A DNA stretch of 64,000 nt from Candidatus Thermoplasmatota archaeon (GTDB lineage: Archaea > Thermoplasmatota > SW-10-69-26 > JACQPN01 > JAJPHT01): assembly GCA_035540375.1 (NCBI GenBank), contig DATLGO010000050.1:1-64000 (forward strand), written 5' to 3'. The position numbers were made by a program, and so were the translations under genes. Under the pieces are notes generated by a model, which worked only from the letters and a program-made list of their open reading frames with translations, had not been told where the DNA came from and did not search any database. How positions within the stretch are numbered: position 1 is the first letter of the stretch; the number at the start of each line of letters is the position of its first letter. Below, one piece after another: positions 1 to 31,425 of the stretch.

Positions 1-131
1 ATGCTGGACTGGGCGCTCGCGGCGCCCGCGAGGGCGAGCATGCCGACGAGCAGCACCGCGAGCGCGGTGAAAGGCCGGAGGAACCGGCGGGCGTTCGACT
101 TCAGGCCGTGGATCGTGTTGTTCGCAACCAT
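1..131 (-). CDS. Secreted or membrane protein, N-terminal fragment (runs off left edge)
   Basis: The reverse strand opens with ATG at 131 and stays open to the window edge, giving 43 visible residues. They form a classic export signal: a basic stretch (KSNARRFLRP), a hydrophobic core of leucine, valine and alanine, and an AGAASA-like cleavage region followed by QSS. Nothing of the mature protein is in the window, so no function can be assigned. The next gene (196-678) is on the same strand and also encodes an exported protein, so the two may be co-expressed. Confidence 0.6.
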   Translation of the reverse strand, partial: MVANNTIHGLKSNARRFLRPFTALAVLLVGMLALAGAASAQSS

Positions 132-195
132 GTGCGTCACCAGGCTAACCTCGCCTCGGGGGGTGATAAGCAACCTGGATGCGGGTGTGAAACGC

Positions 196-26249: not shown

Positions 26250-26828
26250 TCAGGGGCGGGCGGACTCGCGCGCGAGGGCGTCGAGAAAACGCTCGCTCGG
26301 AAAAAGGCCCCGACCGCGCCACCGTCGCGCTTTCAGGTAACGACCCTCGTCGAGGCGCGACACGTGGTAATAGACGACCCGTTGCGAGAGCGCGAGCTGC
26401 TCCGTCAGCGCGCGCACGGAGATGCCGGGCGTATCCGCGATGGCGCGAGCGACGCGCGCCCCCGTGCCGTGGCGGGGGAAGGCGACCTCGTGCCTCGGCG
26501 GCACGCCGGCCGCCGCGTCGTACACGTATCGGCGGCGCCCGACGTTCACTGAGCGCACGAGCCGCGCCGCGCGGAGCGTTTCCAGGTGGAGGTAGAGGCT
26601 CGCCCATCCCACGCCGGATTCCCGCTGCAATTCGCTCAGGCCCAGTCCCGGCTTGCGGCGCACGCACGCGAGGATCCGGAGCGCGGCCTCGGAGGGCGCC
26701 GCGGGGCGGACCGCTCGAGCGAGGGCGCCCAGGAAGGGCGCGGCGACAAGGGTTCCCGGCAGGATGTCGAGGGGAAGCATGGGACCACGGCCGCGGGGCA
26801 GCGGATGGTCGCCCGGTACCCGGTGCAT
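26250..26828 (-). CDS. Transcription regulator with two winged-helix domains
   Basis: 192 residues. The N-terminal part has a hydrophobic segment (LPGTLVAAPFLGALARAV, about 23-40) that may tether it to the membrane. Two winged helices follow: ILACVRRKPGLGLSELQRESGVG...YLHLETLRAARLV, then AIADTPGISVRALTEQLALSQRVVYYHVSRLDEG. They resemble the C-terminal half of 17400-18521. A TATA-like CTTAATTC (26847-26854) lies 22 bp before the ATG. An inverted repeat just beyond (26858-26877) could be an operator. It is convergent with the surface operon, whose stop is adjacent. Confidence 0.75.
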   Translation of the reverse strand: MHRVPGDHPLPRGRGPMLPLDILPGTLVAAPFLGALARAVRPAAPSEAALRILACVRRKPGLGLSELQRESGVGWASLYLHLETLRAARLVRSVNVGRRRYVYDAAAGVPPRHEVAFPRHGTGARVARAIADTPGISVRALTEQLALSQRVVYYHVSRLDEGRYLKARRWRGRGLFPSERFLDALARESARP

Positions 26829-26857
26829 GCTCTTGACGATTGTGGAGAATTAAGTTG

Positions 26858-26877
26858 CAAGGCGTGCATTCGCCTTG
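26858..26877. promoter_or_regulatory. Inverted repeat, possible operator
   Basis: CAAGGCG (26858-26864) and CGCCTTG (26871-26877) are perfect 7-bp arms around TGCATT. The repeat lies directly upstream of the TATA-like box of the winged-helix regulator at 26250-26828, in the unusually A/T-rich gap 26840-26900. Autoregulation is a reasonable guess. Confidence 0.4.
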
Positions 26878-26887
26878 TTATTTTACA

Positions 26888-27597
26888 TCATTCCTCCAAC
26901 GCGACGTCAACTTTTCCCGCCCCGGTTCTCGCGACCGCTTCGTCCGCGAGGCGTTCGGCGAGCCGAGCCGTCGACGTCCTCGACGAGCCGCTCGGGAGGG
27001 TTGTAGGCCACGCGCAGGGGCAGGCCGAGATCCGCGACGAGCGTCGCGACCCCGGGGCCCGGATGGGCGGCGACGTGCAGCGCGATCGCGCGCCGGGCGC
27101 GACGCAGCGGCTGGGGCGGACGGGGGCCTTTGCGGGGGACCCCGCGTCCTTCACGACCGGGTGGAGCTCCTCGCGCCGCCCCTCGGACAGGGATCACGTG
27201 TCCCTCGCCCTCGAGGACCGCGAGATGATGGTCGAGGGAGCCCCAACCCCCAAGGAGAAGCCGCGCGAGCTCGCTGACGGCGATGCCCGGCGATTCCAGG
27301 ATCAGGGCGAGGAGGGCGCCGCCTGCGGCGTCCCCTCCGCGTTCCGCCCGAAGACGGCGCGGCGTCCACGAGGAACCACGCCACGAGGCTCGCGAGACCG
27401 GGAAAGCCGCGCCGCAGGATCCCCACGCATCCTCGAAAACTTGGCGCGCCACGGAGGCCCTGCGGGCGCGCGCCGCCCTGGAACCCGGGGTGGGCCGGAC
27501 AGGAGAAACCAGCGCCCCGGGCTCCACGGAGGGGATCCGTGGATCCAGCCTCGGATGCGCGGTTCACCGCATGAAACCTGGCCAAAGGGACGAACAT
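26888..27597 (-). pseudogene. Probable frameshifted winged-helix regulator
   Basis: Minus-strand reading gives recognisable pieces of a regulator like 26250-26828, but in different frames. A hydrophobic segment GFPGLASLVAWFLVDAAP appears in one frame (upstream of about 27340). A winged helix with PGIAVSELARLLL and SLDHHLAVLEGEGHVIP follows in a second frame. After the wing, RREELHPVVKDAGSP reads in yet another frame before AIALHVAAHPGPGVATLVADLG returns to the second. A continuous 206-residue frame (26907-27527) does exist, but its ends look noncoding. Decay or sequencing errors both fit. Confidence 0.45.
27476..27529. repeat. Structured hairpin element, copy 1
   Basis: A 7-bp perfect stem (CCCGGGG 27484-27490 with CCCCGGG 27515-27521) closes a 24-nt loop (27491-27514) that contains GGGCCGGACAGGAGAAACC. 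Outside an A.C mismatch the stem continues (27479-27482 with 27523-27526). The loop is shared with copy 2 at 29685-29741 apart from one extra A, while the stem sequence differs but still pairs. No known RNA family was recognised. Confidence 0.6.
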
Positions 27598-27626
27598 CCC
27601 CCGTTTCCCGGCGGGTCAGCGAGGTC

Positions 27627-28019
27627 TCACGGCGGGGGCACACACTCGACCGCAAGCAGGAACGGGGGAATCTCGCCGAGCCTCAGCTCGACGTGGATGC
27701 AGTTCGTCGCGGCCACCGCATCGCCTTCCGCCCCGTCGATCACGGCGGAGACCGCGTAACCGGCATAGACGTGGTTCGTCACATGCAGGTTGGCGGGCGT
27801 CTCCTCGATGAGCGTCCGGGCGCCGCTCGAAGAAACACCGTAGACGCGGTAAGCCTCGGCGCCCACCACGGGATCCCACACGAGCGCGACCGTGCCCGCC
27901 TCACCGACCGCGAACGAACGGACCCAATCGGGAACGTCGTTCGGATCGGCCGTGGCGTTCAACGGGACGACGAGGGCGATGGTCAGGGCGCACGCGAGCC
28001 AGCTCGAAATTCGAAGCAT
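27627..28019 (-). CDS. Small secreted protein with fibronectin-III-like domain
   Basis: About 130 residues from ATG 28019 (MLRISSWLACALTIALVV). Signal peptide about 1-24, then a compact domain: TVALVWDPVVGAEAYRVYG is the hallmark first half of a fibronectin type III fold, and VTNHVYAGYAVSAVIDG supplies the last strands. One cysteine lies near the signal and two in the tail. An upstream ATG at 28049 would overlap the start of the divergent gene. It probably binds a surface partner; it is divergent from the TPR-tailed membrane protein at 28069. Confidence 0.65.
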   Translation of the reverse strand: MLRISSWLACALTIALVVPLNATADPNDVPDWVRSFAVGEAGTVALVWDPVVGAEAYRVYGVSSSGARTLIEETPANLHVTNHVYAGYAVSAVIDGAEGDAVAATNCIHVELRLGEIPPFLLAVECVPPP

Positions 28020-28068
28020 CGCACCCTCATCGCGCTTACAGCTCATCATGACCGCCGTTGTTTGTCAC

Positions 28069-29583
28069 ATGGTCCCTCCATCAGGCTCTTGGGGGGTGGA
28101 GGCCATTGGAGGCTCGTTGGCACGACCCAGCGAGCTTCTCCGAGCGATCGCAGCCCTGGTCCTCCTCAGCGCTCCGTCCGTGGCGGCCACCGCCACGACC
28201 GGGGAGTTCGGCATCGCCGGCCCCGCGACGTTCGAGGGGCCCGCGACGCTCGGGGGGCCCCTCCTCGCGGCGTATGGCCGTCCCGAGCCGCAGGCGCTCC
28301 TCCTCCAGGCCGCGCGCGCCACCCTTTCGGTCTCCGTCTACGAAGCCACCTACGTCGATGCCGGAGCCGGGACGAGCACGACGCCCGAGAAGCGGACGTT
28401 GGCCTTCGAGGTCGCCCATGTGACCCTCGTCGGCGCGCGAGAGGGTTATCTCGCGATCCTTCCGAAGGACGGCACCCGGGGGACCCTCACGGGCGACGCG
28501 CTCCGCTTCGAAGCGAAGGACCGCACCACCTTCGGCGCCGCGGTCGTCGGACAACCCGCCGACGAGCGGACCCGGATCTTCTCGCACACCGTCAGCACGC
28601 CGCACCTGCTCGCGAACGATTTCGAGGCCTCCATCGGCCCCCGCTTCGCGCTCAAGCTCTACGGCCCCACCCTGATCGTGGAGACGCCCGAGGGGCGGGA
28701 GGAATTCGCCACGGGCCGATTCCCGGACCCCATGCTCCCCCGCGCCGCCACCGGGCGCGACGTCTGGCTCGTGGCCGAGGTCGCGGCCGAAGCCTCGATC
28801 GGCCGTGGCGCCGACCTCGCGCTCGCGCTCGGCCCCTCCCACGTCCGCTGGTCGGACGCCGTCGATTTCCTCGCCGCGCACGGCCAGCTCCAGGCCGATG
28901 GCCTCCACCCGCTCGAGCGTCCGGGGCGCGTGCGCCTCGAAGGCGACTTCGAGGGCCGCGTCGAGCCGGCGCCGCCGAGCGCGGCCACGCTGACCTTCGC
29001 GGGCGATCTCCGACGCGCCGTGTATCCGACGGGGGTCGTCGCCACGGGGCAGACGGGGCCGATCGTCCCGCCGGCAGGCGACCTCCTGCTTCCGGGCCTC
29101 GGCGTCCTCGCCCTCGGGGCCGTCGGGGCGCTCGCCGTCCGCGCGCTGCGCGGCCGGCGGGTCCGCTCCGCGCGCGCCGACGCCGCGCGCATGACGCCCG
29201 AGGATTGCCTCGCGGAGCACGCGCGCGCCGTCGAAGCCGAGGACTGGTCCGCGGCCCTCGCGTGGACGCGTCGGGCGCGCCGCCTCGCGCCCGCGAGCGC
29301 GCGACTCGCGCACGACGAAGCCTTCGCGCTCGAGCAGCTGGATCGCCTCGACGCCGCGTTCGAGACCTATGCGGAAGCCGCCGCGATGGGCACCGACGGT
29401 TTCGCGGATTTCGGCGCCGCGCGGTGCGCGGCGCGGCTCGGACGGCCTCGCGACGAGATCGTCACGTGGCTCGCGCGCGCCCTCGAAGCCGATCCGGGGC
29501 TCTCGATCGACGTCCTCGCCGACCCGGACCTCGCGCCGCTCGCGCGCGACCCGCGGCTCGCGGATCGGTTCCGTCGCGACTGA
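28069..29583 (+). CDS. Membrane protein with external domain and cytosolic TPR-like tail (paralogue A)
   Basis: About 504 residues. A hydrophobic signal segment (AIAALVLLSAPSVAA, about 26-40) is followed by a 300-residue beta-rich external domain (LALKLYGPTLIVETPEGREE, ATGRDVWLVAEV). A transmembrane helix (LLLPGLGVLALGAVGALAV) leads to a basic RGRRVRSARAD stop. The C-terminal 130 residues are helical repeats like TPRs (EDWSAALAWTRRARRLAPAS, AFETYAEAAAMG). Paralogue B at 30127-31425 has the same plan. An earlier ATG at 28048 is possible. It may transmit a surface signal to a cytosolic partner. Confidence 0.75.
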   Translation: MVPPSGSWGVEAIGGSLARPSELLRAIAALVLLSAPSVAATATTGEFGIAGPATFEGPATLGGPLLAAYGRPEPQALLLQAARATLSVSVYEATYVDAGAGTSTTPEKRTLAFEVAHVTLVGAREGYLAILPKDGTRGTLTGDALRFEAKDRTTFGAAVVGQPADERTRIFSHTVSTPHLLANDFEASIGPRFALKLYGPTLIVETPEGREEFATGRFPDPMLPRAATGRDVWLVAEVAAEASIGRGADLALALGPSHVRWSDAVDFLAAHGQLQADGLHPLERPGRVRLEGDFEGRVEPAPPSAATLTFAGDLRRAVYPTGVVATGQTGPIVPPAGDLLLPGLGVLALGAVGALAVRALRGRRVRSARADAARMTPEDCLAEHARAVEAEDWSAALAWTRRARRLAPASARLAHDEAFALEQLDRLDAAFETYAEAAAMGTDGFADFGAARCAARLGRPRDEIVTWLARALEADPGLSIDVLADPDLAPLARDPRLADRFRRD

Positions 29584-30126
29584 CGGCGAGGCCCCTCGTG
29601 CCCGGCGAATTCACAATGCTTCTCCAAAAGGGCCATCCCTCGCGAAGCCCATGGACGGGCCCGTCTGCCGCGGCGGACCGACCGCCTCGGGGGGTCGGGG
29701 TGGGCCGGACAGGAGAAACCGCGCCCCGACGCCCCCCGAGGAGGGTTTCGAAAAGACGGGCCGGATTTACATGGAATCTCCAATGAGATGAAAGGCTGCG
29801 GGAGCAATCCCGCTTGTCGCGGCGTTTATCGCCCGCCGCGGCGTCAACTCGCGGAGTCCGGGCGTGCCGACCTGCGCGCTCCGGCTCCAAGAGTCTTTCA
29901 CAGGGACTCACGAAACCATCAGGCGAATGTCTTGAGGAAAAATGTCGGTCTTGAGGGCTCCGCGTCGACGCGTAGCCTTGGGCCTGCGGCGCCGTACCTT
30001 GGGCGCCGTTCCCCACGGCCGACCTCATGCGGTGTTGTGACGCCATCCTGCCCAATGTTGGGACCCTTTGGAAATTCACATGTTCTCTCCAGAATTGTCA
30101 AGGCGTCGCCCGCGCTCCCTTCCGTG
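29584..30126. other. Noncoding gap between the paralogous membrane genes
   Basis: About 540 bp with no convincing gene; open frames on both strands lack domains and start context. It contains the second copy of the structured hairpin (29685-29741). It also contains two A/T-rich clusters with similar wording (near 29609-29627 and 30072-30092, each containing ATTCACA...CTCCA) that could be promoter elements. Confidence 0.5.
29685..29741. repeat. Structured hairpin element, copy 2
   Basis: Stem GTCGGGG (29694-29700) pairs perfectly with CCCCGAC (29724-29730) around a 23-nt loop (29701-29723) that matches copy 1 apart from one missing A. A G.G mismatch is followed by four more pairs (29689-29692 with 29732-29735). 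Then, past a 2-nt bulge, CCTC (29685-29688) pairs with GAGG (29738-29741). Relative to copy 1 at least four pairs changed on both sides, indicating selection on structure. Confidence 0.6.
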
Positions 30127-31425
30127 ATGGTGGCGAGGCGGGAGTCGATGACGGTCCTTCTCGCAATGTTCCTCTCGGCGACGTCGGTAACGGCGGCTGT
30201 CGCACACGAGGGGAGTTCGTTGGCCGAGGACCGACAGTCCCTCAGCGGCCCCGTTGAAATCGATGGATTGTGGCTTGCGTCCTTACTTTTCACGGACGGA
30301 TCCGAAGGCCGAATCCTGGATGTCCATTTCGACGCGATCCGCGTCACCGTCTATGAACGCCCTTTCCTCGAGGCGCACGGCGTCGATGCGAGTGTCCGGC
30401 AGTTCCAAGAGAATTTCTCCTTCGGACCCGGGATGGTTCAGGCGCAGGGTCACAAGCCCGGCCTGCTCGGCATCATTCCGGCCTCGCGAACCATGGCCTC
30501 GATCAAGCATGAATCTCCATCCTTGGAAAGGCGCGAACGCGGTCACCTGGGTTCAAACGGCACGAGGGAATCCATTCCCGACAACGCGCCTGCCTTCGGC
30601 ATGACCATCGACGAGCCCCACTCCCTGATCAAAGGGGGCGTTCTCAACGGCACTTCCCTCTGGCGCATGAAGGTCTATGGCCCGAGGGTCATCGTCGAAT
30701 CGGAAGGCGATGTCGTCGTGTTCACGACAGGGAGAGAATATGAGCGCGTCGGTCGGGCGCTCACAGCCGGGCGCGACGTCTGGCTCGTCATCGAGGCCGA
30801 AGGACGAGTGGTCGTCAGAAGTCACGCCGCCCTCACGACCGCCCTGTCGAATCCCTGGATCTCTTGGAGCCCGGAGATCGCCGCGGCCGAGCCCCACGTT
30901 GTCGTCGCGGAGCGTCCCGATTTCCTGCTCCCGGGCCTCACCATCCTCGCCGTCGCCTTCGCGGGCGCCGTCGCGCTGCACGCTCGATTCACGCGCGATC
31001 GGGAACCCTCGGGGCGCGTGCCGACCTCGAGCCTCACTCCCGAAACGTGCCTTGCGGAAGCCTCGCACGCGGCGACCGCGGGCCAATGGGGCCGGGCGCT
31101 CGAATGGACGCAGCGCAGCCGCCGGCTCGCGCCAAAAAGCGCGCGCCTCGCGCTCGACGAGGCCTTCGCGCTCAAGCAGCTTGGCGACGTGGACGGCGCG
31201 ATCGAGGCCTACGGCGAGGCGGCCGCGCTCGGCGACGACGGCGTGGCCGAGTTCAGCGCCGCGCGCCTCGCGGCCTTCGCGGATCGGCCGGCCGTGGTCG
31301 TCGCGATCTGGCTCGAACGCGCCGTCGCGCGGGACCCGGGCTTCGCGGACGAAGCGCGGCTCGATCCGGACCTCGCGCGGTACGCCGGCGACCCCCGGGT
31401 CGCGCGGATCATCGGATCCGGCTGA
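30127..31425 (+). CDS. Membrane protein with external domain and cytosolic TPR-like tail (paralogue B)
   Basis: 432 residues. Signal about 1-25 (MTVLLAMFLSATSVTAA). The external domain has MKVYGPRVIVESEGDVVVF and LTAGRDVWLVIEAEG, matching paralogue A. A membrane helix (LLPGLTILAVAFAGAVAL) precedes a basic RFTRDREPSGR stop. The tail WGRALEWTQRSRRLAPKSAR, VDGAIEAYGEAAALG is TPR-like and close to A. Codon use is less GC-biased in the external part than in the tail, suggesting recombination between the halves. An ATG at 30148 is an alternative start. Confidence 0.75.
   Translation: MVARRESMTVLLAMFLSATSVTAAVAHEGSSLAEDRQSLSGPVEIDGLWLASLLFTDGSEGRILDVHFDAIRVTVYERPFLEAHGVDASVRQFQENFSFGPGMVQAQGHKPGLLGIIPASRTMASIKHESPSLERRERGHLGSNGTRESIPDNAPAFGMTIDEPHSLIKGGVLNGTSLWRMKVYGPRVIVESEGDVVVFTTGREYERVGRALTAGRDVWLVIEAEGRVVVRSHAALTTALSNPWISWSPEIAAAEPHVVVAERPDFLLPGLTILAVAFAGAVALHARFTRDREPSGRVPTSSLTPETCLAEASHAATAGQWGRALEWTQRSRRLAPKSARLALDEAFALKQLGDVDGAIEAYGEAAALGDDGVAEFSAARLAAFADRPAVVVAIWLERAVARDPGFADEARLDPDLARYAGDPRVARIIGSG

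Follow-up and report, generated by a model that had tools for sequence, protein, structure and literature searches.

Two hairpins with a nearly identical loop and covarying stems lie 2.2 kb apart, in direct orientation, within one gene cluster of a Candidatus Thermoplasmatota archaeon. To judge from its sequence, this fixed-loop pair looks like a real structure that is kept by covariation at two noncoding places. The window is the whole stretch of DNA that was analysed, 64 kb (64,000 nucleotides) in length.

The shared loop and its stems

The two copies, with their coordinates rechecked in the window, and the block that they have in common are as follows.

27476–27529, hairpin copy 1: four outer pairs, a 1x1 mismatch, a perfect 7-bp stem and a 24-nt loop
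29685–29741, hairpin copy 2: outer stem interrupted by a 2-nt bulge, a 1x1 mismatch, a perfect 7-bp stem and a 23-nt loop
27486–27519 (+), shared block in copy 1: CGGGGTGGGCCGGACAGGAGAAACCAGCGCCCCG
29696–29728 (+), shared block in copy 2: as CGGGGTGGGCCGGACAGGAGAAACCAGCGCCCCG minus one A

The shared block is identical at 33 of 34 nt and reads CGGGGTGGGCCGGACAGGAGAAACC[A]GCGCCCCG. The sole difference is one A, which is extra in copy 1. In a local blastn comparison, the two hairpin regions match with E=6e-11 and the flanks of the blocks are non-homologous. The longer spacers around the copies score no better than shuffles (41/200). Holding a 5-bp closing stem of its own (CGGGG/CCCCG), the block lies within inner 7-bp stems that are perfect in both copies, CCCGGGG/CCCCGGG in copy 1 and GTCGGGG/CCCCGAC in copy 2. 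These differ at two of seven pairs (C-G to G-C and C-G to U-A). Outward from the block, copy 1 pairs C-G, C-G, mismatch A.C, A-U, G-C, G-C and U-A, and copy 2 pairs U-A, G-C, mismatch G.G, G-C, G-C, G-C and G-C. Each copy forms six pairs over the seven positions next to the block. The one position left unpaired, the 1x1 mismatch, is A.C in copy 1 and G.G in copy 2 and falls at the identical step; of the four pairs past it, two are changed (A-U/G-C and U-A/G-C). Over the whole stem, four pairs are compensatory, changed on both sides. A preliminary description of this DNA had reported hairpins at these coordinates with a common loop differing by one A, perfect 7-bp stems, an equivalent 1x1 mismatch and further outer pairing, and all of this is borne out. 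Its count of "four or more" compensatory pairs is correct once the outer pairs are included; the inner seven contribute two. Both hairpins are outside called genes, in agreement with the noncoding position that it gave them.

Chance could place a short duplicated stretch between pairing bases in a G+C-rich genome. The G+C content is 69%, and similar-shaped hairpins occur at about 10 places in the 64 kb, mostly in coding DNA. The shared loop, rather than the hairpin shape, is what sets the pair apart. Against chance stand the match between the two regions (E=6e-11) and the pairing past the block. At random window sites, six of seven positions pair with P=0.0039 per copy; for both copies P is about 1.5e-5, an uncorrected value for a pattern that was picked after the data were seen. 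The inner-stem shuffle test is not significant (126/500), and with n=2 sequences formal covariation tests are powerless. We regard chance as an unlikely origin.

Folded as RNA in isolation, copy 1 has a z-score against shuffles of -4.35 on the minus strand and -1.80 on the plus strand. Copy 2 reaches -3.70 on the plus strand and -2.89 on the minus strand, the plus strand being slightly better. The better-folding strand differs between the copies, minus for copy 1 and plus for copy 2; on the minus strand, the A.C mismatch of copy 1 turns into G.U. An intrinsic terminator scan, covering loops of 3–8 nt only, gave none at either hairpin, and a T run directly after the stem is absent at both.

Without the loop, both sites read as near-perfect palindromes centred on GGGG/CCCC. 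A 25-nt piece might therefore have been inserted or copied into the centre of two such pre-existing palindromes, the stems being the target and the loop the insert. Such an event would account at once for the identical loop and the unrelated stems, but a free copy of the insert is absent elsewhere in the host genome, no empty site was seen, and it does not predict that the mismatches of the two stems coincide in position. To our knowledge, there is no element with an insert of about 25 nt, and we consider this origin unlikely.

The gene cluster and motif M

The hairpins are embedded in a cluster of regulators and membrane proteins, in which a 16-nt motif (motif M, TYACATGNNNYCTCCA) also recurs.

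26250–26828 (-), regulator R1: two winged-helix domains, HTH_HVO_0163_N and HTH_20
26907–27527 (-), R2: a diverged or decayed R1 relative, frame open
27627–28049 (-), small secreted FN3-like protein: its gene stops 97 nt from copy 1
28069–29583 (+), gene A: signal peptide, transmembrane segment and TPR tail
30127–31425 (+), gene B: paralogue of gene A, with 50% identity over the tail and 27% over the outer part
26883–26898 (+), motif M with 1 mismatch (TTACATCATTCCTCCA): 55 nt upstream of R1
28065–28080 (+), motif M, exact: in the gap that separates gene A from the divergent FN3-like gene
29611–29626 (+), motif M with 2 mismatches (TCACAATGCTTCTCCA): 58 nt before hairpin copy 2
29767–29782 (+), motif M, exact: 25 nt past the end of hairpin copy 2
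30076–30091 (+), motif M, exact: 35 nt upstream of the gene B ATG

The order is R1 (-), R2 (-), hairpin 1, FN3-like (-), A (+), hairpin 2 and B (+). Gene A may start at a TTG at about 28117, and its stop codon is 101 nt before copy 2. The alignment of R2 covers both wHTH domains and shows no frameshift, and the true start of R2 is probably at about 27452, just past copy 1. The hairpins had been placed near a decayed regulator; the place holds, but the frame 26907–27527 (-) is open and has both domains, and R2 may be better termed diverged. The copies had also been placed upstream of the paralogous membrane genes. This is loosely true of copy 2. Between copy 1 and gene A the antisense gene 27627–28049 (-) intervenes, so copy 1 is unlikely to be the leader of gene A. 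A 3'-end element was considered and rejected. Both copies lie about 100 nt past a stop codon, and the orientation of the loop relative to the gene is opposite at the two stops, which a strand-specific 3' element does not fit.

In a small tree, genes A and B group with each other as closest relatives (support 88/81); they differ by about 2 changes per site, placing their duplication far back. One hairpin precedes each gene, and the pair could date from the tandem duplication behind A and B, as a relic of an ancestral hairpin whose loop was kept by selection or gene conversion. This is improbable, however, given that the spacers are non-homologous, that no trace of an FN3 gene precedes gene B, and that the hairpin is absent both from the paralogous cluster on host contig C87 and from the whole related genome G001 (seven homologous matches). 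A recent duplication of a longer stretch, or neutral drift, is disfavoured by a block identical at 33 of 34 nt between unrelated flanks and by paralogues separated by about 2 changes per site.

The copies are direct repeats with inverted arms around the FN3-like gene and gene A, an arrangement that would suit recombination sites (attL/attR-like) bounding a 2.2-kb cassette. Strand exchange inside the loop would give each hairpin the 3' arm of the other, leaving arms that no longer pair. Each copy pairs internally, which argues against recombination through the loop, and none of the open frames lying between the two copies was recognised as a recombinase gene. With arms that pair within each copy and are not exchanged between copies, this reading was rejected as highly improbable.

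The C87 cluster has the identical order of regulator (-), FN3-like (-) and TPR membrane protein (+). It carries a hairpin of its own (L042 7524–7587) with a 15-bp perfect stem and a 34-nt loop unrelated to the loop described here. That hairpin lies 8 nt past the stop of the gene A paralogue, and its loop holds a small palindrome (GAGGCCATGGCCTC). The set of a two-wHTH regulator and a small secreted FN3-like protein recurs at window 26250–31425, at L022 and at L043 14332–15319, with an adjacent TPR-tailed membrane protein at two of these three places. The regulator/FN3-like/TPR set looks like a lineage-specific module. Elsewhere in the assembly, window 1–141 and positions 1–141 of L052 (C70) are identical over 141 bases at their contig starts, a repeat that probably broke the assembly.

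All five motif M sites in the cluster are intergenic and on the plus strand. The pattern was taken from the three exact sites; those at 26883 and 29611 are independent of that choice. With up to two mismatches, five of the six matches in the window fall in 26883–30091. With up to one mismatch, four sites are observed against 0.07 expected in 64 kb, and the remaining host genome has only three more. The sites stand shortly before R1, A and B, and two of them flank hairpin copy 2. The motif probably serves a small local regulon around R1, A and B as its operator or promoter. Its resemblance to the minus-strand loop is weak (TGGTTTCTCC vs ATGGNNYCTCCA). In G001, 12 one-mismatch matches were found, several of them as TCACAGGAAWYCTCCA (for example C30:30420, C34:67451, C40:35755, C41:13842 and C45:66876), where a reversed control gave none. 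These are perhaps a related promoter or operator.

Searches for further copies

The host assembly comprises 3.13 Mb in 110 contigs and is 97% complete. Its HVO_0163-type wHTH domains, and an aIF5B-like protein in L049, suggest that the genome is archaeal. The exact shared 18-mer has only two occurrences in the assembly, both of them in these hairpins. A covariance model built on the 39-nt core of the two copies found no third copy in 7 genomes of the class and 390 of the phylum. The weak matches (E of 1–10 in the class, and one with E=0.06 among the 390 phylum genomes) are at chance level. Rfam yielded no family at gathering thresholds for either hairpin, in line with the earlier statement that no known RNA family was recognised; the best match below threshold was mir-3155, at 21.5 bits against a cut-off of 70, which is at the level of chance. 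Exact 19-mer matches among 84,980 species genomes (Acetatifactor, Omnitrophota and a proteobacterium) are stemless and at chance expectation. IMG/VR, phages and plasmids gave no convincing relative of the hairpin; their exact and near matches are chance or resemble coding sequence, and such stems are absent at the viral 16-mer matches. Phylum matches with three mismatches (GGGCGGCCCGTACAGGAGAACCC and similar) are mostly not hairpins, and most of them we take to be antisense of AAA+ Walker-A coding sequence.

Among the genomes searched, the hairpin is thus restricted to one locus of one genome. The earlier description had proposed a conserved RNA or DNA structure. As an RNA family it is not supported: neither the host genome nor the 7 class genomes nor the 390 phylum genomes yielded a third copy or a homologue, and the hairpin is absent at the paralogous TPR clusters. 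The lack of a third copy is one half of the outcome that the earlier description had named as refuting.

The host genome (G000) also contains a multicopy intergenic element of three hairpins, the middle of which has 22 copies. Its order is CACTCCGTG-[variable stem, TGCG tip]-CACTYCGTG, CCAGAGRRGGGG..CCCCYYCTCTGG, usually followed by CAGGGGCTCCGCCCCTGG and CCCGCGTTTCTT. Examples are L064 1430–1610, L067 1430–1610, L065 1445–1610 and L061 1440–1610, and the element is also found on the window's own contig, outside the window (C50:77044–77078). One copy of the middle hairpin occurs in another family of the order (G003), and none in 5 other class members; a reversed control pattern gave none. The stems differ between copies yet pair. 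The copies that were read have the same sense as the preceding gene, several of them shortly past the stop (aIF5B-like, glutamine synthetase-like and others), and an Rfam match is absent. This element is a candidate for a new 3'-end RNA element or hairpin repeat, and it is a richer and better lead than the two-copy hairpin.

What the hairpin pair may be

A fixed loop on compensating stems points to selection on a folded strand. The arms differ in sequence, which argues against a protein that reads them as duplex DNA. RNA is the more usual substrate for such selection, and both isolated hairpins fold below shuffles. Our preference, a tentative one, is that the hairpins are a local RNA element carried in short noncoding transcripts. 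These may be sibling small RNAs or leader/antisense RNAs; the best fit is with sibling RNAs that stand alone, and a DNA hairpin repeat is a close second. In the proposed mechanism, the stem could drift in sequence while pairing persists, and it would display a loop of about 24 nt that stays fixed. The putative transcripts would be made inside the cluster described above (both wHTH regulators, the FN3-like protein and both TPR membrane proteins), which would regulate itself; by pairing or by binding a protein, the surface of the loop would tune the expression of these genes. Selection at the RNA level, a transcript and a regulatory role are all things that we infer.

Several findings count against RNA. 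The pair consists of two sequences in one genome, no relative carries the hairpin, and hairpins of similar size also occur in coding DNA here. On the minus strand, copy 1 has the FN3-like gene and R2 on either side, but copy 2 would be antisense, with a plus-strand gene on each side of it. On the plus strand, copy 2 is between A and B, and copy 1 follows no plus-strand gene, with an antisense gene standing before A. A conventional host transcript for both copies is offered by neither strand.

This lack of a strand that suits both copies speaks for a DNA-level hairpin repeat (REP- or MITE-like), in which the loop and inner stem were copied between places. Replication template switching would then mend mispaired stems, giving compensatory changes without selection. 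Two direct copies 2.2 kb apart would fit, and the host genome has a second family of hairpins, dispersed in 22 copies, in which the stems vary and certain segments are fixed. Nevertheless, there are two copies only, in one cluster, and comparable short intergenic repeats are few in the 450 kb examined. A copied hairpin should also bring its stem, and the outer stems share nothing past the block. We rank a DNA repeat as possible, close behind the local RNA element.

Known systems resemble the pair in part. Sibling small RNAs (e.g., LhrC and OmrA/OmrB) come as several copies near one another, in which an exposed loop or segment is conserved and the stems drift. Conserved loop and drifting stems are found in both hairpins here; unlike those RNAs, these are only two copies, in one genome. 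Hairpins of the CsrB/RsmZ type carry ACAGGA loops, and the plus-strand loop here contains ACAGGAG, in two hairpins only, 2.2 kb apart. A Csr/Rsm regulatory RNA was considered on this account and rejected, as CsrA was not found in the host genome by a PF02599 search that was positive in 3 control genomes. In integron attC sites the end boxes are kept and the loop varies, the structure being kept on a variable stem sequence. The hairpins here likewise keep their structure on a variable stem; in reverse of attC, the loop is fixed, and an integrase was not recognised. REP palindromes have been reported across bacteria and archaea (PMC12306157). Like them, the hairpins here are intergenic G+C-rich palindromes; unlike REP sequences, which have many copies and conserved stems, they have two copies, a conserved loop and a variable stem.

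The hairpin pair is at present a well-observed curiosity of one genome, with family status unsupported and a function that we infer. If the copies are DNA repeats, stems can covary without RNA selection, a caution for structure claims that rest on two copies. It is doubtful, but conceivable, that they are a new pair of lineage-specific sibling regulatory RNAs with an invariant loop of about 24 nt, set in a self-regulated membrane-protein cluster with its own operator motif in an uncultivated archaeal lineage. As RNAs, they would be a rare instance of sibling regulators in an archaeal lineage of which little is known, and a set of targets as well as a candidate operator would lie close by.
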